This document shows, in pieces, positions 26,888-56,435 of a stretch of DNA of 64,000 bases. A program made the position numbers and the translations under genes. Numbering within the stretch: position 1 is the first letter of the stretch; each line of letters begins with the position of its first letter. The stretch is from Flavobacteriales bacterium (GTDB lineage Bacteria > Bacteroidota > Bacteroidia > Flavobacteriales_D > Crocinitomicaceae). The stretch is from the NCBI GenBank assembly GCA_022361195.1, contig JAKSBJ010000392.1:1-64000 (forward strand), given 5' to 3'. Below the pieces are notes generated by a model. It had not been told where the DNA came from. It saw nothing but the letters and a program-made list of their open reading frames with translations, and searched no databases.

Positions 26888-27766
26888 CTAAAAAACAAAC
26901 TCAAAGTCTACCCGACGATTCAATTGTTTTCCAATGGAGTTTGAGTTGGACATGGCAGGATCAGTCTCTCCTCTGTATTCAATTTCAATCCTATCCTCCT
27001 TTAATCCATGATCCATCAAAAATTGTTTAATTCGCTGAGCACGTCGTTCTGAAAGCCCTACATTATAGAGATCCGTTCCATTAGAGTCAGTATGTCCTAT
27101 GATTTTAATTCTTAAATCGGAATGGGATTCAACTACTCTCACCATGTCCTCCAGGTAAGATTCAAACTCCGCTTTTAATTCATCTTTATCGTGATCGAAA
27201 TAGACCGGTTGAAATTCAAAATTCCGCATTTCAGCATCTCTTACATAATAAGCTTTCCAGCCCTTATTTAGCTCAAAAGCCATATTGTTAAACCAGGAAT
27301 GATAAAGCGTAACTGTATCTGATTTAGACATTTTGTGTTTGGATCGGAATAAGACAATTTTACCCGTCAGTCGCTTACAATCAGACGATGACCAATCTCC
27401 TGTCAAATAACCTGTTTCGGGGTCATATGTCAATTTTCCCTTTTGATGACACCATACTCTGCCACCTTGATTCTCTTGCAAACCTATAATGACATCTTCA
27501 TAACTTATGGTAAAAGCCTCTTCGGCTGTTCCTTTGATATTTTTGTAGGCAAAATAGTTAGTGAAAGGAGTCTCACAGCGGGAATCCCCAGTCATAGCTC
27601 CTGTTTCCTCATTAATGTTAAAGTCAAACCAAATGGCTGTTCCTTTTTCATAAGGTTCGTTGTAGGTGGTCATAATTCCCTGCCAACTTCCCTTTAAAAA
27701 GTGTAATTGCCCATACGACTGAAAGGCAACTAAGCACAAGCATATAAATCCTAAGTACTTTCTCAT
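26888..27766 (-). CDS. OmpA-family protein with N-terminal lipocalin-like domain
   Basis: The 292-residue protein has a signal peptide (about 1-20) and ends with an OmpA peptidoglycan-binding domain (about 185-292): FDHDKDEL, IIGHTDSNGTDLYNVGLSERRAQ and RRVDFEF. The N-terminal part (about 22-150) is a beta-rich domain with conserved W/G residues and GDW motifs that recalls lipocalin-like exported domains, but I cannot name it. The ATG at 27766 is preferred over a GTG one codon earlier. It lies 12 bp upstream of the TPR-SpoIIE gene, so the two may form an operon linking envelope state to signalling (inference). Confidence 0.82.
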   Translation of the reverse strand: MRKYLGFICLCLVAFQSYGQLHFLKGSWQGIMTTYNEPYEKGTAIWFDFNINEETGAMTGDSRCETPFTNYFAYKNIKGTAEEAFTISYEDVIIGLQENQGGRVWCHQKGKLTYDPETGYLTGDWSSSDCKRLTGKIVLFRSKHKMSKSDTVTLYHSWFNNMAFELNKGWKAYYVRDAEMRNFEFQPVYFDHDKDELKAEFESYLEDMVRVVESHSDLRIKIIGHTDSNGTDLYNVGLSERRAQRIKQFLMDHGLKEDRIEIEYRGETDPAMSNSNSIGKQLNRRVDFEFVF

Positions 27767-27866
27767 CACGAAAAAAGAAGAATCAAAGTTTATACCTTTT
27801 TATACGGAAGATACAACAAACGTTACGTTTGAGCACATTTAAGCAAAAAAATATGTGGACTTTAGG

Positions 27867-28910
27867 CTATTCCCGCCTCTTCCATTCTGCAAAGTTGGTG
27901 GTAATTCCAAACACATTGGAAACTCCAGCAGCAGAGTAGATCGAAATTCCATAATCAAATGAGAACTTCTTGATTTTTAATCCTAAACCAAAAGAGAATC
28001 CTCCAGCACCCATTCTATCCACAATTCCCAATGAATTTCTTCTTTGGAAGTTGAAGCCCATACGGATAAAGAAATTGTCCGTTGGTAAAATCTCTACTGC
28101 GAAGTTGGTATGATAGGCTAATTTTTGCGCAAAGCTGGCTTTAGGAACCGGAATGGTATCTTGTGTTAATTGGTCAATGGTTGGAACCAAGGTAGGATCA
28201 TTATAAGTCAAATCCCAGGTCGTTAAGTCTTTAGCTGTAATGCTCAATCGAAAAGGCGCATGGTGAAATTTGTAAGAGATTCCTGCCAATACTTCCAGTG
28301 GTAAAGGTTCATGATTTTTCTCTGTAAATCCTTTGAATTGATATCCGATATTCCGAGCCAATAAAGTGGCAGAGATGTTAGATCTATCATCGTGAAACAT
28401 AACAGCCGCATCTACTCCCATTCCAAATGAATTGTATGATTCATAATGAGAAAAAACAGCATTTAAATTTCCACCTATCGAAAAGTACTTATTGAGTTCG
28501 TAACCATATCCAACACCCAAAGCATAATCTCCTGCGGTAAAGGTTCCCAATTCCTGCCCGGTAGCATCCGTTCGGGTAAAACGTCCATAAGACACATAGC
28601 GCAAGTGAGAAGTAAAGGTTCCTATATCCTCAAAATTACGGGCAAAAGCTAATTGTCCATAATTGATTCCCGCTGGATAAATAAAATGATTCAGGGATAA
28701 ATTCTGATCCATTTTTTCATTGATAGAGGCAGGATTAGCAACCGCCAAATCAAGATCTCCATCCTTTAGGGCAATATAGTCACCACCAAGAGCCGTTCCA
28801 CGGGCATTGAAATCGAGATCCAAAAAAGACCAGGTTGTTTGTCCTCCGGTTTGGGCCGTAGCACCTAATGAACTGATGAGGACGATAATGCAAAGAGATA
28901 GGTATTTCAT
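27867..28910 (-). CDS. porQ: Type IX secretion system protein PorQ
   Basis: PorQ is an outer-membrane beta-barrel of the type IX secretion attachment complex, which with PorU, PorV and PorZ links cargo to the surface. The 347-residue protein has a signal peptide (about 1-20) followed by the family N-terminus TTWSFLDLDFNARGTALGGD, then a barrel of alternating strands ending with an aromatic pattern close to the C-terminus. The ATG at 28910 is used rather than a GTG before it. It is monocistronic. Its presence supports active T9SS, matching the cargo proteins in this window. Confidence 0.9.
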   Translation of the reverse strand: MKYLSLCIIVLISSLGATAQTGGQTTWSFLDLDFNARGTALGGDYIALKDGDLDLAVANPASINEKMDQNLSLNHFIYPAGINYGQLAFARNFEDIGTFTSHLRYVSYGRFTRTDATGQELGTFTAGDYALGVGYGYELNKYFSIGGNLNAVFSHYESYNSFGMGVDAAVMFHDDRSNISATLLARNIGYQFKGFTEKNHEPLPLEVLAGISYKFHHAPFRLSITAKDLTTWDLTYNDPTLVPTIDQLTQDTIPVPKASFAQKLAYHTNFAVEILPTDNFFIRMGFNFQRRNSLGIVDRMGAGGFSFGLGLKIKKFSFDYGISIYSAAGVSNVFGITTNFAEWKRRE

Positions 28911-28959
28911 CACAATTATGCTAAACGCAAATAAAGATAGTTTATTTTATAATCTTGCC

Positions 28960-42368: not shown

Positions 42369-44792
42369 ATGAATCTTACAAAACGGACTACAAATTTGCT
42401 ACTTATTCTGACCGTTTGGCTTTGTATGATGCCACTTGGTCATTCGTATGCACATTTCCCAAATAGCCCCACACATTACATCTTTGTTTCTGATTCAGAC
42501 GGTATTCCAGATGCCTCAGATTTAGATGATGATAACGACGGTATTCCTGATATCACAGAAGGAAGCGGTGATACCGACAATGATGGTATTTTAGATCGTC
42601 TGGATTTAGATTCGGACGGTGATGGAATCTCAGATATTATTGAAGCTGGAGGGACAGATGTTGATGGAGATGGTGAAGTAGATGGATTTGTAGATGCAAA
42701 TATGGATGGATTGCATGATCCCTTAGCTGCATCTCCCCTTCCAACTCCAGATACGGACGAAGATGGATTCAGCAACTTTCAGGATATTGATTCTGATGGA
42801 GACGGAATCATAGACAACATCGAGGGTCAGGCATCCACACTTTATATTCCACCTTTGGAATTTGATGCAGATAACGATGGTTTGGACGATGCTTATGATT
42901 CAAACAGCTCAGGAACTGCAATAATTCCAGTAGACAAAGATGAAGATGGTATTGTCGATTACCTCGATTCAAATAGCGATAATGATGCCGAAGGAGATGT
43001 AATTGAAGGTTGGGATGACAATGGAAACGGAAGTCCTGAAGTAACACCTTCTGGCTCGGACAGTGACAATGACGGTTTAGATAATGCTTTTGATGTAGAT
43101 GGACCTTCAATTGTGAATAATGGTGGCTCTACCAACTTTGGAAGTTTACCTACCGATTTTCCAGATGCCGATAATCCAGGAATTGGAGATTTAGATTGGA
43201 GAGAAAATGATACGGATGGAGATGGAGTTTCAAATTTGCAGGACTTAGATGACGACAACGATGGAATTCCGGATTATGTTGAACTCTGCGGTCCGGGAGA
43301 AACAACTTTTAGCTGTACAGCCGATCCACAATTAGACGACGATGTAGATGGTATTCCTAACTACATGGATTCTGATTTTTGTACTCTCAACGCCTGGGGA
43401 GTTTGTGAAGATTTTGATACGGACAATGATGGTATCATTGATCCTTTTGATTTGGATTCAGATAACGACGGAATCTCTGATCTTTTTGAAACCAAAGGGA
43501 AAGATGGGAACCTTGATGCTAAAGTTGATGACTTATATGCCGACGGAAGCCTGATGTACGACTCAAACAATGATGGAATTTCGGACAGTTCAATTACCAC
43601 TCACCCTGGAAATTTAGATCAATTAACCAAACCCGACTTTCAGGACTTAGATGCGGATAATGATGGCGTTTACGACATTTTGGAAAACGGAGGAATTGAC
43701 ATTAACAAAGATGGACGTGTCGACGCTGCATTGCCTGACGGAAGTTTAGTAGACGATCCGGAGGATGATGGATTGAGTAATTCAACAGCTGCCACCTTTA
43801 ACCTTGATACCGATAATGACGGAGAGTATAACTATGCCGATTTAGATTCGGACAATGATGGAATGTCTGACCTTTTTGAAAATGGTCAGGACGATGTTAA
43901 TGGCGATGGAATGTTAGATGCTCATGTGGATATTGACGAAGACGGTGCGGATGATACTCAAATGATTGACGATGCAATTGACAGTGATGAGGATGAAGTT
44001 CCCAATTACCGTGACCTGGATTCGGATAACGATCTTATTTCGGACGGTGAAGAGGCTGGAATAATTGATTTAGATGGAGACGGTTCTCTGGATAATTTTG
44101 TTGATGACAATGGGGATGGTTGGGATGACCTTAACCCTGTTTCTAACCCTTTAGATACAGATGGAGATAATATTCCTGATTATTTGGATTTAGATAGCGA
44201 CGATGATATTATTCGCGACATTGTTGAAGGAGGTAGAATTTCAAACGATTTCAATTTTGATGGATTGGTAGATGGCTTCACTGATGCTAACCTTGATGGA
44301 TGGCATGATGAAGACCATTTAAGTACCAATAACGTTCCGGATACCGACGGGGACGGAACGGCTGATTATCGCGATTTGGACAGCGACGGTGACGGGGCTT
44401 TGGACGAATTTGAATGGGACTCCAATTCGGATGGTTCAGCACCTGATGATTGTAATGACGACGGAATTTATGATTGGGTAGATCGTGAAGCCTGTGATGT
44501 AAAAGTTCCGCAAGGGTTTTCACCCGATGGAGATGGAATCAACGATACTTTTGTACTTACTGGAGCCGACTTTTATGAAGAAGGAAAACTAACTGTATTT
44601 AATCGCTGGGGAAAAAAGGTATATGAATCCATTAACTATCAAAATGATTGGGATGGAACCAACCAATTTGCCGGAGACGGAACGAAGGAACTTCCTGTAG
44701 GAACTTACTTTTACATTTTTGAACCTAACCAAACTAATGCCGACGGAGACGAAATAGAACCTACCAAAGGTTTTGTTTACATCCAACGATAA
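42369..44792 (+). CDS. Giant Asp-rich repeat protein with T9SS type B sorting domain
   Basis: The 807-residue protein has a signal peptide (about 1-27), then about 650 residues of thrombospondin type 3-like calcium-binding repeats of the DxDxDGxxD kind, for example DLDSDNDGISD, and a C-terminal type B sorting domain (about 715-807, starting VPQGFSPDGDGINDTF and ending GTYFYIF ... GFVYIQR), the gliding-motility-associated domain. It is exported by the type IX system and displayed or released at the surface; calcium should rigidify the rod. It is coupled by a one-base overlap (TAATG) to the PorP/SprF gene. Binding target unknown. Confidence 0.9.
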   Translation: MNLTKRTTNLLLILTVWLCMMPLGHSYAHFPNSPTHYIFVSDSDGIPDASDLDDDNDGIPDITEGSGDTDNDGILDRLDLDSDGDGISDIIEAGGTDVDGDGEVDGFVDANMDGLHDPLAASPLPTPDTDEDGFSNFQDIDSDGDGIIDNIEGQASTLYIPPLEFDADNDGLDDAYDSNSSGTAIIPVDKDEDGIVDYLDSNSDNDAEGDVIEGWDDNGNGSPEVTPSGSDSDNDGLDNAFDVDGPSIVNNGGSTNFGSLPTDFPDADNPGIGDLDWRENDTDGDGVSNLQDLDDDNDGIPDYVELCGPGETTFSCTADPQLDDDVDGIPNYMDSDFCTLNAWGVCEDFDTDNDGIIDPFDLDSDNDGISDLFETKGKDGNLDAKVDDLYADGSLMYDSNNDGISDSSITTHPGNLDQLTKPDFQDLDADNDGVYDILENGGIDINKDGRVDAALPDGSLVDDPEDDGLSNSTAATFNLDTDNDGEYNYADLDSDNDGMSDLFENGQDDVNGDGMLDAHVDIDEDGADDTQMIDDAIDSDEDEVPNYRDLDSDNDLISDGEEAGIIDLDGDGSLDNFVDDNGDGWDDLNPVSNPLDTDGDNIPDYLDLDSDDDIIRDIVEGGRISNDFNFDGLVDGFTDANLDGWHDEDHLSTNNVPDTDGDGTADYRDLDSDGDGALDEFEWDSNSDGSAPDDCNDDGIYDWVDREACDVKVPQGFSPDGDGINDTFVLTGADFYEEGKLTVFNRWGKKVYESINYQNDWDGTNQFAGDGTKELPVGTYFYIFEPNQTNADGDEIEPTKGFVYIQR
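42495..44480 (+). repeat. Coding repeats of the Asp-rich rod
   Basis: Many near-identical units of about 36-100 bp encode the calcium-binding motifs, with recurring words such as GATTTAGATTCGGA and GACAATGATGGAAT (for example near 42604, 43460, 43850 and 44015). Homologous recombination between units could change repeat number, so length may vary between strains. The antisense frames are long because of the biased sequence and are not genes. Confidence 0.7.
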
Positions 44793-45721
44793 TGCAAAAA
44801 TTATTAACCATAATATTCATTGTTCTGAGTTTTTCCTTAAAGGCTCAACAGGATCCTATGTTCACACATTATTCTTTTAATACATTATCGGTCAACCCTG
44901 CCTATGCAGGAAGTAGAAACATTTTATCAGCTACTGCTTTACATCGCTCGCAATGGGTGAATTTTGATGGTGCACCGCATACACAAACTATCAATTTACA
45001 CAGCCCTATTCTTCAAAACAAAGCTGGGGCCGGACTAACTTTTATGAATGATAAAATTGGGCCAACTAATACCTCTTCTGTTTTTGGAGACTTTGCAGTT
45101 AAAATAAAAGTGAGTAAAAAAGGGAAATTAGCACTTGGACTAAAAGCGGGACTTAAATTCCGTTCCAATAAACTTACCGAATTAGAGCTGGATCAAATCA
45201 ATGATCCAAAATTTCAAACCAATGCCCAAAACCAAATATTGCCTAATCTCGGTTTTGGATTCTACTACTCCAGCCCTAAATTCTATCTCGGATTGGGGAT
45301 TCCGTATTTATTACGAAATGAGTTCTCCGCAAATGCAAATGGTTCTGATAACTTTGCTCGTGAAAGCCGTCACACCTACATTATTTCGGGAGGAGTTATT
45401 GAATTATCAAAAGACAAGAACATTCAACTACGTCCATCCACTCTTTTAAAAATTGCCGAAGGAGCTAAGCCACAATTGGACATTACAGCCCTCTTTTATT
45501 TCAATAATAAAATTTGGTTAGGACCTATGTTCCGAACCGCTGATGCAGCAGGAGTATTAGCCGGGATCAAAGTCTCAGATCAATTTTCGGTGGGATATTC
45601 CTTTGATTGGTCGTATGGAGTAAATACAGGACGTTACAATGGTGGAGGACATGAACTTATGTTGCGCTACGATTTCCGTTTTAAAAACAAAGGTAAAATT
45701 GAATCTCCGGCACCATTCTAA
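44792..45721 (+). CDS. PorP/SprF-type outer-membrane protein of type IX secretion
   Basis: The 309-residue protein has a signal peptide (about 1-19) and the family N-terminus QDPMFTHYSFNTLSVNPAYAGSR, followed by a beta-barrel with GAGLTFMNDKIGPTN and a C-terminal LMLRYDFRF strand. PorP/SprF proteins are encoded next to type B cargo and help its secretion or anchoring. Here its ATG shares one base with the cargo stop (TAATG) and its own stop shares one base with the next start, so all three are coupled. It is probably dedicated to this cargo. Confidence 0.92.
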   Translation: MQKLLTIIFIVLSFSLKAQQDPMFTHYSFNTLSVNPAYAGSRNILSATALHRSQWVNFDGAPHTQTINLHSPILQNKAGAGLTFMNDKIGPTNTSSVFGDFAVKIKVSKKGKLALGLKAGLKFRSNKLTELELDQINDPKFQTNAQNQILPNLGFGFYYSSPKFYLGLGIPYLLRNEFSANANGSDNFARESRHTYIISGGVIELSKDKNIQLRPSTLLKIAEGAKPQLDITALFYFNNKIWLGPMFRTADAAGVLAGIKVSDQFSVGYSFDWSYGVNTGRYNGGGHELMLRYDFRFKNKGKIESPAPF

Positions 45722-47241
45722 TGAAAAAACTGTTCTACATACTACTGTTTTTCTCCGCTAATGCCAATGGCCAAAAGTCGGAACTGGATGTCGCTTTAAA
45801 AGCGCAGGAGGCTTACGATAATTTCAACTATCCAAAGGTCATTGAGTTGTATGAGGATTTAGAACATGGTAATGCTAAAGCACAACGTAACCTGGCCAAT
45901 TCATATTGGAAGATTAACGATTTAGCCAATGCTCAAAGAGCCTACAGCCGTATTGTTGAAATGGAAGATCATACTCCTGAGGATTTATTGCGTTACGCCT
46001 TTTTACTCCGTGAACTTACCGAATACGAAGAGTCCATTGAATGGATGGAGAAATATGCCAAAAAGGAAAAAAACAATGCCATAGTTAACGACTACATTGC
46101 TTATCCCACAGCACATGTTCCTTTGTTAGACACGAACGATCAATTTGAGATTGTCCATTTACCGTATAATTCGGCTCATCAGGAATTTGGGGTCTTTTTT
46201 ATTGGGGACGGAGTTGTCTTTACATCAAGCCGTGAATCTTTCAAATCTATCAAACGACAATACAATGCCACTCAGTTACCATTTTTGGATTTGTATTATG
46301 CCGATTTGTATGACAGCACACTCAACTTCATTTATCCTCGTCCTTTTAATAAAGCCTTCAGAACAAAAGGTCACGACGGCCCTGCTACATTTAGTGGAGA
46401 TGGAAATTTGATCATTTTCACCGCTAACAGTTCCGAAAAAGATTCAGAAGGTTTCTATCACCTTCAATTATTCTGGTCAAAACGAAGTGGAAAAGGCTGG
46501 ACTAAACCACAAGCCTTAAACATTAATGAAAAAGGTTATTCTTTTACTCATCCTTCTTTATCAGCCGACGGAAAAACACTTTATTTTTCATCCAATAAAA
46601 CAGGGGGAAAAGGAGGTTATGACATTTACCGTTGCTCCATTTCTGGGGATATGCAATGTGGGTCAACCGAAAATTTAGGAGATCATATCAACACCTCTGG
46701 TAATGAAATATTTCCTTTCATTCATCCCAATGGCGGCATGTTCTTCTTTTCATCCGACGGAAAAATAGGATTGGGTGGTCAGGATATTTTTGCTTGTCAA
46801 CTCAATGCCGATAATACGATAGGCTCTGTGCATAACCTTGGAACTCCAATCAACAGTTCTCGAAACGATTTTTCCTTTGTATTGAGCAAGGACCTTAAGC
46901 GGGCTTACTTTGCTTCTAACCGTGAAGGAGGAAAAGGAAGTGACGATATTTATGGAGTTAATCTGAAAAACCCCATTGTTTTTCATCGTTCCCTAAAAGG
47001 TGTTATTCTGGACGAAAGTAATCGACCAGCAGGAGCGGTAAAAATTCGACTCGTCAACGCCACTGGAAAAGAAATCAGAACAACTTACACCGATGCTGAC
47101 GGACGTTTTGATTTAAAAGTAGAAAATACCGACTCTCTCAACATTTCAGTCGAAAAATCGGGCTATAAAACTATTCAACGACCAGCTTCTCTTTCAAAAG
47201 TTGAACCAGAATTGAAATTCCGTTTGAAATTAGAGAAATAG
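45721..47241 (+). CDS. TPR-PD40-carboxypeptidase-regulatory protein without OmpA domain
   Basis: The 506-residue exported protein has a signal peptide (about 1-18), TPR-like helices (about 20-125), a PD40/WD40-like beta-propeller (about 150-415, for example ADGKTLYFSSNKTGGKGGYDIYR) and a C-terminal carboxypeptidase-regulatory beta domain (about 425-506, GVILDESNRPAGAVKIRL). Relatives in T9SS loci usually continue into an OmpA peptidoglycan-binding domain; this one stops at the beta domain, with a normal stop codon and no frameshift. It is coupled by TAATG to the PorP/SprF gene. Confidence 0.88.
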   Translation: MKKLFYILLFFSANANGQKSELDVALKAQEAYDNFNYPKVIELYEDLEHGNAKAQRNLANSYWKINDLANAQRAYSRIVEMEDHTPEDLLRYAFLLRELTEYEESIEWMEKYAKKEKNNAIVNDYIAYPTAHVPLLDTNDQFEIVHLPYNSAHQEFGVFFIGDGVVFTSSRESFKSIKRQYNATQLPFLDLYYADLYDSTLNFIYPRPFNKAFRTKGHDGPATFSGDGNLIIFTANSSEKDSEGFYHLQLFWSKRSGKGWTKPQALNINEKGYSFTHPSLSADGKTLYFSSNKTGGKGGYDIYRCSISGDMQCGSTENLGDHINTSGNEIFPFIHPNGGMFFFSSDGKIGLGGQDIFACQLNADNTIGSVHNLGTPINSSRNDFSFVLSKDLKRAYFASNREGGKGSDDIYGVNLKNPIVFHRSLKGVILDESNRPAGAVKIRLVNATGKEIRTTYTDADGRFDLKVENTDSLNISVEKSGYKTIQRPASLSKVEPELKFRLKLEK

Positions 47242-47324
47242 CTTAAAAGCTGAAGCCCAAATACTTCTCCTCTTTCTCAAGCCACCCCACTACTCCAAAG
47301 AACGTCTTAAGCTAAACAGCGCTC

Positions 47325-48338
47325 ATGAGGATACTTATACTTAGTTCAATTTTATTGTCATCCCTTTCCTTCGCCCAAACCCGAACAACGGTTATGGATG
47401 GTTCATTTTTTAATCCACTTATCTGGACTCCTGTTGGTATACCAACAGATGGAGATTCACTCGTTATAGACCATGATGTCACTATGGTTGACTTTGGAAT
47501 TCCTTTTTCCAGTGGTCGAATTACCGTTAATTCCGGAGCTTCTTTATCTGACGACGGAGCAGGCCTGGACATTTACTGTAATGGAGGTTCATTGATTAAC
47601 CATGGAACTATTGATTGTAATGACATTTGGTTGGATTCAGGAGAATTGGAAAATCATGGATCTATAACTCTTGACAGTATGTGGACACAAGGAACTGTTC
47701 TCAATACGGGAGAATTAACCACTTATGACCTTTTAACCGATCAAAACGAGCAATGGACCAATGACGGAACTGTAAATGTTGAGAATAATCATAACAATCA
47801 AGGGGTATTCATCAACAACGGACAGCTTTATGTTGGAAACAATTTTGCTAACTGGAACACTCAAACTTCCGATGCTACTTTTGACTGTAATGGTTACCTC
47901 TGTGTTGAAAATGATTGGTCTAATGCCAATGCTGATGATACGGTAAGAGGTAGTGGATACATTTTTGTAGTAGGAGCTAGTTCTAACCTTGGAATTATGG
48001 AAGGTACCTTAACATTTAACACTCCAGGTGGAGCATTAGGCATAAATACCGGATCCGTTGCTCCGTCAATTACATTTGGAACTTCAGTTTGCAGTGTAGG
48101 CTTAGAAGAAAATGAATCAGTTCAATGGACCCTTTATCCGAATCCTGCAGAATCTCAAATTCAAATTAGTTTAAGCGACTTTGATTTTAAGATCATGGAC
48201 TTAAGTGGCCGAATTGTACAAGAGGCCTACAGTGAAGATGGCTTGATTAATCTAGCTGAACTGGAAAGTGGCATTTACAATTTTGTGGTACAAGATAAAA
48301 ACGGTCAAATCTCCTCCAGTCTTTTTATGAAAAATTAG
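47325..48338 (+). CDS. Secreted protein with T9SS type A sorting domain
   Basis: The 337-residue protein has a signal peptide (about 1-17) and a beta-rich repeat region (about 30-255) with short repeats of GSLINHGTIDCNDI, GELENHGSITLDS kind, suggesting a beta-helix. The last 75 residues are a type A sorting domain: LYPNPAESQIQISL, then KIMDLSGRIV and LESGIYNFVVQDKNG. It is secreted by the type IX system and attached or released at the surface. It lies 83 bp after the PD40 gene, so may be in the same transcript. Function is unknown. Confidence 0.85.
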   Translation: MRILILSSILLSSLSFAQTRTTVMDGSFFNPLIWTPVGIPTDGDSLVIDHDVTMVDFGIPFSSGRITVNSGASLSDDGAGLDIYCNGGSLINHGTIDCNDIWLDSGELENHGSITLDSMWTQGTVLNTGELTTYDLLTDQNEQWTNDGTVNVENNHNNQGVFINNGQLYVGNNFANWNTQTSDATFDCNGYLCVENDWSNANADDTVRGSGYIFVVGASSNLGIMEGTLTFNTPGGALGINTGSVAPSITFGTSVCSVGLEENESVQWTLYPNPAESQIQISLSDFDFKIMDLSGRIVQEAYSEDGLINLAELESGIYNFVVQDKNGQISSSLFMKN

Positions 48339-48459
48339 GTTAATAAAGCCTAAACAAATCAGCTTTTAACAACTGTTAATAAACCTTTTAGGTCTCATTT
48401 CATACTTTGGTGTTGCTAACCGAAAGTAACTCCCTCTAGCTTTCTCAAACCCTAAATGA

Positions 48460-49167
48460 ATGAAACCATATTATTTGCTGGGACTTGTTCTTCTGGTATT
48501 TTCGTGCAAAAAATTAAGCGAAGAACAAAAGTTTGACAAAGCCAATCCCCAGCCCGATGTGCTGAACCGTGCAGGTATTGACAGTGTTTTAAACTCCTTT
48601 GAAGAAATTCCCTATGCTCAATTAACCGAGGAGTATAAGGACAGTACAGATCCTGAACGGAAATTTGAAAAGGAATTGAGCAGTCGTTCGTACTATGCCA
48701 TTAGCGGAGATGAGATTTATACCAAAGTAATTGGTCATTATCGTGTAAGGGATTTCCTGGCCAAGGATTATTTCTATAAACAAAATCTAAAAAACCTTGG
48801 AGCCAAACGTATGCAGTTTTGGTTAATCGACAAAGAAGTTTTGTATATGATGCTTGAACTCATTCATCGCTTGGATGAACAAGGTTATAATCCCTACGGT
48901 TTCCACATTCGTAACAGCCATCGTCATCCCAATAAAAACAAATCTGTAAACGGTGCTAAATACAGTCAGCACATGTTTGGTCGTGCCATTGATATTGGTG
49001 TAGATGATGTTAACAAAGATGGAAAGTCCAATTTAGATGATAAAGCCATTTTGTATGACTTACTGCAAGATATTGTTGGGAATAAAGGAGGTTTGGGGCT
49101 ATACCCAGGCCAAATGAGTTTGCATTTTGATTGTCGTGGACACAGAGCAAGATGGGATTGGCCTTAA
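48460..49167 (+). CDS. M15-type peptidoglycan peptidase, lipoprotein, with an EF-hand-like loop
   Basis: The 235-residue protein has a lipoprotein signal (lipobox VFSC, C16). The C-terminal domain carries the M15/YcbK zinc motif SQHMFGRAIDI (H171, D178) and the late LHFDCRG motif with the third ligand histidine, as in D-Ala-D-Ala-type carboxypeptidases. Between them D183, N185, D187 and G188 form a DxNxDG calcium-type loop resembling EF-hand or dockerin loops. The protein should face the periplasm and cut or bind stem peptides. It is monocistronic, with 121 bp upstream. Confidence 0.8.
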   Translation: MKPYYLLGLVLLVFSCKKLSEEQKFDKANPQPDVLNRAGIDSVLNSFEEIPYAQLTEEYKDSTDPERKFEKELSSRSYYAISGDEIYTKVIGHYRVRDFLAKDYFYKQNLKNLGAKRMQFWLIDKEVLYMMLELIHRLDEQGYNPYGFHIRNSHRHPNKNKSVNGAKYSQHMFGRAIDIGVDDVNKDGKSNLDDKAILYDLLQDIVGNKGGLGLYPGQMSLHFDCRGHRARWDWP

Positions 49168-54847: not shown

Positions 54848-55579
54848 ATGAAAAATTTCATCTTCATCCTACTCGGTTTCTTATCCTTTACTACTCATGC
54901 ACAAGTGGATATCAAATTACAATATGGTCCATCAGCTTCCTTAGACTGGTCGTATCGTTCACTAAAGATTGCCAATGGGTATGATGGTATTTATGAAAGT
55001 ATCATTTTTGATCGTGATCAAAAAGAAAAGTTTGCTCCAAGAGCCACTGTAGGGTTTGATTTCGGGCTTCTTTTTGGAGATCATTTCTCAATGGGAACAG
55101 CTGTCCATTATTCCAATAAAGGATACCAACACAAAAACATTTATACAACTTTTTTCCAATATGTTGTAGATGGTGTAACCTATGTGGAGGAAATTTCTTC
55201 GGTAGATGTAAATGCATGGATCAATTATCACTACATCGACATTCCCATAACCATTGGATACCAATTTAATTTAGGTGAACGAAATGGTTTAAAATTTCAA
55301 TTGGGCTACATTAATAATCTTTACCTCACTTCTTCGTATCGCGCCTGGTTTAACTATGAAAATGGAACAAAAGAAAAAAACTACGATTCTAATCGTGAAC
55401 TGAGTAACTACTCAGCTCAAGGGATGGGAGGAATTTATTTTCAGTGGAAACCAGGTCAAATGGAAACACCCATCGAAATCGGTCCTCAATTTAAATTCAG
55501 CATTCTTTCCATTGTCGATTCTCCTATCCATGAACGCCTCTACTCTGTGGGACTTAGAGCTGCATGGTATTTAAGATAA
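54848..55579 (+). CDS. Outer-membrane beta-barrel protein (copy 1 of tandem pair)
   Basis: The 243-residue protein has a signal peptide (about 1-19, ending THAQ) and a small porin-like barrel with alternating aromatic strands, ending in the aromatic C-terminal strand SVGLRAAWYLR. It resembles PorT/OmpW-like 'outer membrane beta-barrel' proteins common in Bacteroidota. The next gene is a close paralogue: both share KLQYGPSAS, DWSYR, INYHYIDIPIT, SNYSAQGM and IHERLYS segments in the same order. It lies 50 bp after the hydrolase. Transported substrate, if any, is unknown. Confidence 0.75.
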   Translation: MKNFIFILLGFLSFTTHAQVDIKLQYGPSASLDWSYRSLKIANGYDGIYESIIFDRDQKEKFAPRATVGFDFGLLFGDHFSMGTAVHYSNKGYQHKNIYTTFFQYVVDGVTYVEEISSVDVNAWINYHYIDIPITIGYQFNLGERNGLKFQLGYINNLYLTSSYRAWFNYENGTKEKNYDSNRELSNYSAQGMGGIYFQWKPGQMETPIEIGPQFKFSILSIVDSPIHERLYSVGLRAAWYLR

Positions 55580-55709
55580 CCCTCTTATTTTCAAAATTCA
55601 AAACGACATCTACTATCCATTGCCAAATTTTGAAAAGAAAGCAAGGATATAATAATTGAAATAGATTTTAGTTTACGATAGGGAACTCAAAACTACATTC
55701 ATCTCTATC

Positions 55710-56435
55710 ATGAAGAATCTTATTCTTGTACTGCTTTGCTCAATTCCATTCATTAGCAGCACGCAAATTGACGTCAAATTACAATACGGCCCATCAGCTT
55801 CTTTTGATTGGTCATATCGTACATTAACACTCGACAGTGATGAATTTGGGATTGGAGAAAGTATCATTGATTTTCGTAATGAAATTGAAAAATCTGCTCC
55901 ACGAGCCACTGCCGGTATTGATTTTGGACTTCTCCTTGGAGATCATTTCACGGTTGAAACGGGAATGCAATATTCAAATAAAGGTTACAGATCTCAAAAT
56001 AACTTCACCCTTGTAACTCATGAAAATGACAACGGTACAATCGTGACTAATGTCGTATCAGCAGAGGTGAAATCGTGGATTAATTATCATTACATTGATA
56101 TTCCTATCACTGTTGGTTACCAATTGAAACTCGGAAAACAGAATGGTTTGAAAATGCAGTTGGGTTATATCAACAACTTTTACATCACCTCTTCATTTCG
56201 AACGATATGGGACTGGGGACATACAAAACAAATAGACTATGATACTGCCCGTCAATTAAGTAATTATTCAGGCCAAGGGATGGCCGGAGTCTATTTTCAA
56301 TGGAGGCCCGGACAAATGAAAACGGCAATAGAATTTGGGCCACAATTCAAATTCAGTACTCTACCGATCATTGAGGCTCCAATTCATGAACGTTTGTATT
56401 CTGCCGGAATTAGAGCCGCATGGTATTTAAGATAA
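55710..56435 (+). CDS. Outer-membrane beta-barrel protein (copy 2 of tandem pair)
   Basis: The 241-residue protein is the tandem paralogue of the preceding gene, with the same signal-peptide layout, nearly the same length and conserved blocks along its whole length, including the last strand SAGIRAAWYLR. The differences cluster in the loops, as expected for surface-exposed segments (inference). A 130-bp gap separates the copies. The pair arose by duplication and has diverged. No sorting domain or known ligand motif is present. Confidence 0.75.
   Translation: MKNLILVLLCSIPFISSTQIDVKLQYGPSASFDWSYRTLTLDSDEFGIGESIIDFRNEIEKSAPRATAGIDFGLLLGDHFTVETGMQYSNKGYRSQNNFTLVTHENDNGTIVTNVVSAEVKSWINYHYIDIPITVGYQLKLGKQNGLKMQLGYINNFYITSSFRTIWDWGHTKQIDYDTARQLSNYSGQGMAGVYFQWRPGQMKTAIEFGPQFKFSTLPIIEAPIHERLYSAGIRAAWYLR

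Follow-up and report, generated by a model that had tools for sequence, protein, structure and literature searches.

A PorE–PorP–type B cargo operon of a Flavobacteriales bacterium with a PorE-like subunit that lacks OmpA

In a 64,000-nucleotide stretch of a Flavobacteriales bacterium (Crocinitomicaceae; assembly GCA_022361195.1, contig JAKSBJ010000392.1, positions 1 to 64,000; the whole stretch is called the window), we identified a PorE–PorP–type B cargo operon whose PorE-like subunit is without the peptidoglycan-binding OmpA domain, and we see an even chance that its rod sits on the cell surface without a static anchor. Three contiguous plus-strand genes encode the cargo rod (42369-44792), a PorP/SprF-family barrel that is its putative cognate carrier (44792-45721) and a PorE-like partner composed of TPR repeats, a PD40 propeller and a carboxypeptidase-regulatory-like domain (CRD) (45721-47241). 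Carriers of the PorP type gather their cognate type B cargo at the translocon and retain it at the surface by its sorting domain, and PorE is a periplasmic binding partner of PorP that can attach to peptidoglycan through its OmpA domain, as described in PMC9143113, PMC12618676 and PMC7192894. How type B cargo is held, and what sets static versus gliding-track movement, is an open question. The window operon lacks exactly the wall-binding part, and comparison with its relatives revealed a five-residue PorP tail that tracks PorE neighbours.

The PorE-like partner and its C-terminal end

The 506-residue partner scored 84.3 bits for PD40 and 38.7 bits for CarboxypepD_reg, with no match to OmpA. 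Its best NCBIfam families were CHU_0125_OmpA (NF053607; 267.2 bits, below the cut-off of 620) and PorE (NF052230; 247.3 bits, below the cut-off of 600), and the match stops before the OmpA part. The TPR, beta-propeller and CRD core of PorE/CHU_0125 is therefore present in the window partner and the C-terminal OmpA peptidoglycan-binding domain is missing. The CRD, at residues 424-503 (46990-47229, plus strand), is the final domain according to a PF13620 match at 424-490 and an AlphaFold2 (AF2) model built with 11 sequences (mean predicted local distance difference test score, pLDDT, 75.9). In the model, TPR helices run to about residue 127, the propeller starts at about residue 142 and the final beta domain follows; its last strand spans 497-503, and the stop after residue 506 lies at the edge of this third domain. 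The partner has a signal peptide without a lipobox cysteine (N-terminus MKKLFYILLFFSANANGQKS, judged by eye).

The first-pass annotation of this DNA had described a third gene that stops after a regulatory beta domain without OmpA, and both the domain profiles and a search of the 3′ sequence confirmed this. No OmpA remnant was found 3′ of the partner by a six-frame OmpA profile search of positions 46900-48500 at maximum sensitivity, which includes the 83-bp intergenic gap behind the operon (47242-47324, no strand). A tblastn search with the tail of the partner from genome G025 gave a match of E 0.003, which was the window partner's own CRD. Together, these searches exclude a frameshifted or remnant OmpA domain.

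The partner was searched in relatives (149 genomes), the family (240 genomes) and the class (395 genomes). We fetched 100 loci: 80 came from the relatives search (top-ranking matches and two short frames), and the family and class searches supplied the other 20 (top-ranking matches and short frames, picked deliberately). Profiles for OmpA, PorP and CHU_C were seeded with sequences of the window's genome and refined iteratively over these loci. OmpA was present in 86 of the 95 partners encoded directly downstream of PorP. The remainder were cut by a contig end (seven) or had broken frames (L180 and L181), and none of the 95 was an intact, complete partner without OmpA. L180 and L181 were rejected as further OmpA-less cases because they are chains of same-strand frames with an OmpA frame shortly downstream, likely due to frameshifts; L179 was rejected because its partner frame is also broken. 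Within the same genome, contig C89 bears a sister operon of full length whose partner has OmpA; so do the partners at all ten further loci from Saprospiraceae, Aureispira or Bacteroidetes metagenome-assembled genomes (MAGs, by name). The annotation had allowed that most orthologues might also lack OmpA, making this an ordinary architecture; since 86 of 95 carry the domain, this is ruled out and its absence is unusual here.

In the partner tree, the window protein falls within a group supported at 97, in which 49 of 56 rows have OmpA. Its core retains 63 of 72 conserved columns (those conserved in at least 85% of the other rows; 16th lowest of 88), and so looks constrained rather than decayed. 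Given this normal core conservation and the nesting among OmpA-bearing proteins, the absence of OmpA appears to be a derived, clean domain loss, and the window partner appears to be a separate OmpA-less case inside an OmpA-bearing clade. A conserved second OmpA-less class is formed by partners on contig C253 of the same genome and in genome G004 (L093:5133-7547 and L229:3226-5493, both minus strand). Like the window partner, these are PorP-adjacent with a PorE-like core; they end in an Ig-like DUF1573 domain and follow PorPs with the tail CPDYL, whereas the window partner ends after its CRD. L176 encodes a 616-residue copy, not PorP-adjacent, that has two domains of the CRD type but lacks OmpA.

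The C-terminal tail of the PorP carrier

The 309-residue carrier scores well above the cut-offs of PF11751 (253.6 bits; cut-off 22.3) and TIGR03519 (258.4 bits; cut-off 90.55), and sequence searches of the PDB yielded no relative. Its AF2 model has 14 strands followed by a disordered tail which, because the strand number is even, is predicted to lie on the periplasmic side, as does the N-terminus. Aligned with 95 other PorPs, the tail reads SPAPF instead of SPRYF (45704-45718, plus strand): Ala307 stands where relatives have Arg, and Pro308 where most have Tyr. All 95 others have the Arg. Of 57 conserved columns the carrier matches 52, which ranks it 24th lowest among 96, and the tail Arg and Tyr are among its five departures. 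PorPs ahead of OmpA-bearing partners have PR[YFHN]-type tails, mostly SPRYF. In the PorP tree the window carrier belongs to a set of 15 rows (support 100/96), and the other 14 all have the tail motif and a PorE neighbour. As far as the sequences indicate, loss of the wall anchor coincides with loss of a PorP tail signal. The changed tail was not part of the first-pass annotation, and we found no literature joining SPRYF and 'type IX secretion'.

We then counted a relaxed tail motif (PR with Y, F, H or N as the next residue, located among the final eight positions) in 189 distinct PorPs. This count excluded frames above 400 residues, open 3′ ends, redundant identical sequences, and any PorP that had neither a PorE match nor at least 1500 bases of downstream sequence. 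The motif was present in 110 of 115 PorPs with an OmpA-bearing partner, in 4 of 59 without a PorE-like neighbour and in 7 of 8 where the partner was cut by a contig end. Seven PorPs had a partner labelled as lacking OmpA. Four of them carried the motif: the three next to broken frames and L248, which adjoins a TPR-only protein. The other three, without it, were the window carrier and the PorPs preceding the two DUF1573 proteins. Because the 189 PorPs are weighted to the window's kin, we also examined three complete genomes with every PorP included, 67 in all. Here the motif occurred in 14 of 20 PorPs with a PorE-like neighbour (L248 being counted among the 20) versus 4 of the 47 that have no such neighbour (Fisher P = 7.7e-7, a value that ignores kinship). 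In the larger motif-bearing set, motif and PorE neighbour are both absent from L222, L218 and the L226/L227 pair; L216 has only the motif, and L245 only the neighbour.

Other tail types were also observed. PorPs ending in CPQL, CPKL or CPRL (L219:4838-5833, L219:16146-17132, L259:5019-6011 and L086:9718-10710) adjoin PorE-like proteins, three with OmpA and one cut by a contig end; a mixed wall and disulfide attachment is possible for such tail-cysteine PorPs. We make no claim for a salt bridge between the tail Arg and propeller Asp382 (Asn in the window), since L125 also has Asn although its PorP ends in SPRYF.

Anchoring of the rod

The closest described systems pair a type B cargo with a PorP barrel and a PorE. 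Gorasia and colleagues showed a PorE–PorP–PG1035 complex in Porphyromonas gingivalis (PMC9143113), and a crystal structure of PorE's OmpA-like domain contains a peptidoglycan fragment (PMC7192894). The window operon shares with this complex a type B cargo, a PorP barrel and a TPR–propeller–CRD periplasmic partner, but P. gingivalis PorE is a lipoprotein with a C-terminal OmpA domain (PMC9143113, PMC7192894) and the window partner has neither feature; the PorE homologues of Flavobacterium johnsoniae, too, are described in PMC7192894 as not predicted to be lipoproteins. According to the postulate in PMC9143113, mobile type B cargo is carried on a PorP-like protein alone and non-mobile cargo also on PorE. 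A 2025 study reported that Fjoh_3952 is static and encoded in an operon with a PorE homologue, while mobile cargo is encoded without one (PMC12618676). Both the 2022 and 2025 papers propose that a PorE neighbour denotes a wall-anchored complex (PMC9143113, PMC12618676). The F. johnsoniae operon Fjoh_3952-3951-3950 resembles that of the window in joining the genes for a cargo, its carrier and a PorE-like protein, and its complex is proposed to be static and wall-anchored (PMC12618676). The window partner, in contrast, has no OmpA for wall binding, and the tail of its carrier is altered relative to the 95 related PorPs.

Because PorE uses its OmpA domain to bind peptidoglycan (PMC7192894), the earlier suggestion that the window complex may lack a wall anchor was a fair one. 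We propose that the rod would be exported and held at the surface by its PorP, and that the PorE-like core, judging by its operon position, may still cap or stabilise PorP. The complex would no longer be tied to the wall, leaving the rod without a static anchor and free to diffuse. The PR[YF][FL] tail could form part of the PorP–PorE (or PorE–OmpA) connection, and would have decayed here because that connection is no longer needed. SprF offers a precedent for a carrier tail as connector: it carries SprB, a type B cargo, as the window PorP is predicted to carry its rod, and its periplasmic C-tail decides attachment through a Cys-X-Cys bonded to GldK on the gliding track (PMC12635249). None of the 309 residues of the window PorP is a cysteine, so it has no SprF-type tail and the GldK bond would be unavailable although GldJ and GldK are encoded in the genome. 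This would leave a rod complex that is either unanchored and diffusing or anchored in trans.

Several observations weigh against an unanchored rod with a decayed tail signal. The case comes from one genome, a MAG-like assembly in 404 contigs; a second genome of the genus was not found, and the tail change and OmpA loss together count as a single event. The association between tail and PorE is mostly clade structure, as the labels are strongly clade-bound on a tail-free tree (12 changes versus a shuffled mean of 37.9). Exceptions run in both directions: 5 of the 115 PorPs with an OmpA partner have no motif, and the 4 of 59 without a PorE-like neighbour, plus L248 with its TPR-only neighbour, have one. 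PorPs beside the broken partners L179-L181 retain the motif, though these frames may be sequencing errors.

Instead of being unanchored, the OmpA-less core might recruit a separate OmpA/Pal-like protein, as the TolB propeller does with Pal, so that the complex would still be wall-bound; we consider this unlikely, though it deserves attention. The solved structures nearest to the AF2 partner model are TolB chains, several of them in complex with Pal, and in Tol–Pal the OmpA-like Pal is a separate protein. However, this predicted similarity concerns the propeller only, with low TM-scores (∼0.3), and the partner has no TolB family match above cut-off and a different N-terminal domain. Candidates are available, as there are 30 OmpA-domain matches in the genome. 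One is the stand-alone OmpA protein that the first-pass annotation placed at 26888-27766 and offered as a substitute anchor. The gene is real (PF00691, 72.5 bits), with its end corrected to 27769 on the minus strand, but it did not hold up in that role: it lies on the other strand, and homologues occur in 35 of the 36 genomes searched from the same family but in none of 23 from other families, also where partners own an OmpA domain. This presence regardless of the operon makes it a weak trans-anchor candidate, and it was rejected as a dedicated partner because it is a single-copy, family-wide gene without operon linkage, with PorQ as its neighbour at 3 of 19 loci and in genome G080. Another is a complete PorE/CHU_0125-like OmpA protein of 692 residues behind a TPR gene just past the window (contig C401 64051-65925, locus L098), for which no PorP neighbour was found in L098. 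In G080 a full cargo–PorP–PorE operon adjoins an OmpA–PorQ block, but as that operon owns an OmpA domain it gives no argument for sharing and was dropped as evidence. More generally, no gene is linked or coupled to the window operon in a way that would support recruitment, and the OmpA domains in relatives' partners do not suggest a spare site for binding in trans.

Alternatively, the PorE-like gene could be an early pseudogene or an assembly artefact, OmpA having gone missing by chance or through misassembly without functional consequence. In keeping with this, its terminal branch is long (1.1 versus a median of 0.45), its identity to sisters is 0.37-0.44 versus 0.39-0.56 among sisters, and the assembly is fragmented as described above. 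We nevertheless regard it as improbable, because the 506-codon frame is intact and ends at a domain edge, conserved columns are retained at a normal rate and the TAATG coupling to the carrier gene persists; moreover, the PorP tail changed independently 1.5 kb upstream, and one misassembly would not yield both. Finally, a mobile rod whose complex rides the gliding track like SprB–SprF would fit with the encoded GldJ and GldK and with mobile type B cargo being encoded without PorE (PMC12618676), but is very unlikely, as SprF couples to GldK via its Cys-X-Cys tail (PMC12635249) while the window PorP has no cysteine and its operon retains a PorE-like core.

Extending the unanchored reading, we tentatively suggest that the periplasmic C-tail of PorP/SprF proteins might act as an address code, in which PR[YF][FL] would dock PorE–OmpA, cysteine tails would dock the gliding track, and loss of both would set the cargo free. 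The window would then be a double loss and represent a third, untethered class of type B rod, a possible but doubtful generalisation. The tail finding itself is correlative, and a single natural double loss stands behind it. The OmpA loss and tail change hint at how surface rods are fixed or released, and the static versus mobile question can now be tested by small edits in a gliding bacterium.

Operon layout, cargo and neighbouring genes

Both operon junctions are one-base stop/start overlaps, TAATG, between the cargo stop and PorP start (44790-44794, plus strand) and between the PorP stop and PorE-like start (45719-45723, plus strand). The gene set, the 807-residue type B rod and the two overlaps were as first annotated, with exact coordinates. 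The cargo consists of a signal peptide, an Asp-rich calcium-type rod and a C-terminal CHU_C/type B sorting domain at residues 712-805 (44502-44783, plus strand), which is above cut-off for PF13585 (87.3 bits; cut-off 27) and TIGR04131 (43.7; cut-off 35). The rod has 23% Asp and 24 DxDxDG motifs, falls short of the Pfam cut-off for thrombospondin type 3 repeats (19.2 versus 25), and is related to the cargo of sister operons, e.g. L107 and L195.

Elsewhere in the window, the stand-alone OmpA protein adjoins PorQ (NF033711, 353.5 bits; together 26888-28913, minus strand), and this block is conserved with a YfcE-type phosphodiesterase and truA in G080 (L172), beside the full cargo–PorP–PorE operon of that genome. 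A type A sorting-domain protein (TIGR04183, 31.2 bits) is encoded 83 bp 3′ of the window operon (47325-48338, plus strand), and a tandem pair of similar outer-membrane barrel proteins of 243 and 241 residues, with weak NF049866 matches, lies at 54848-56435 (plus strand).

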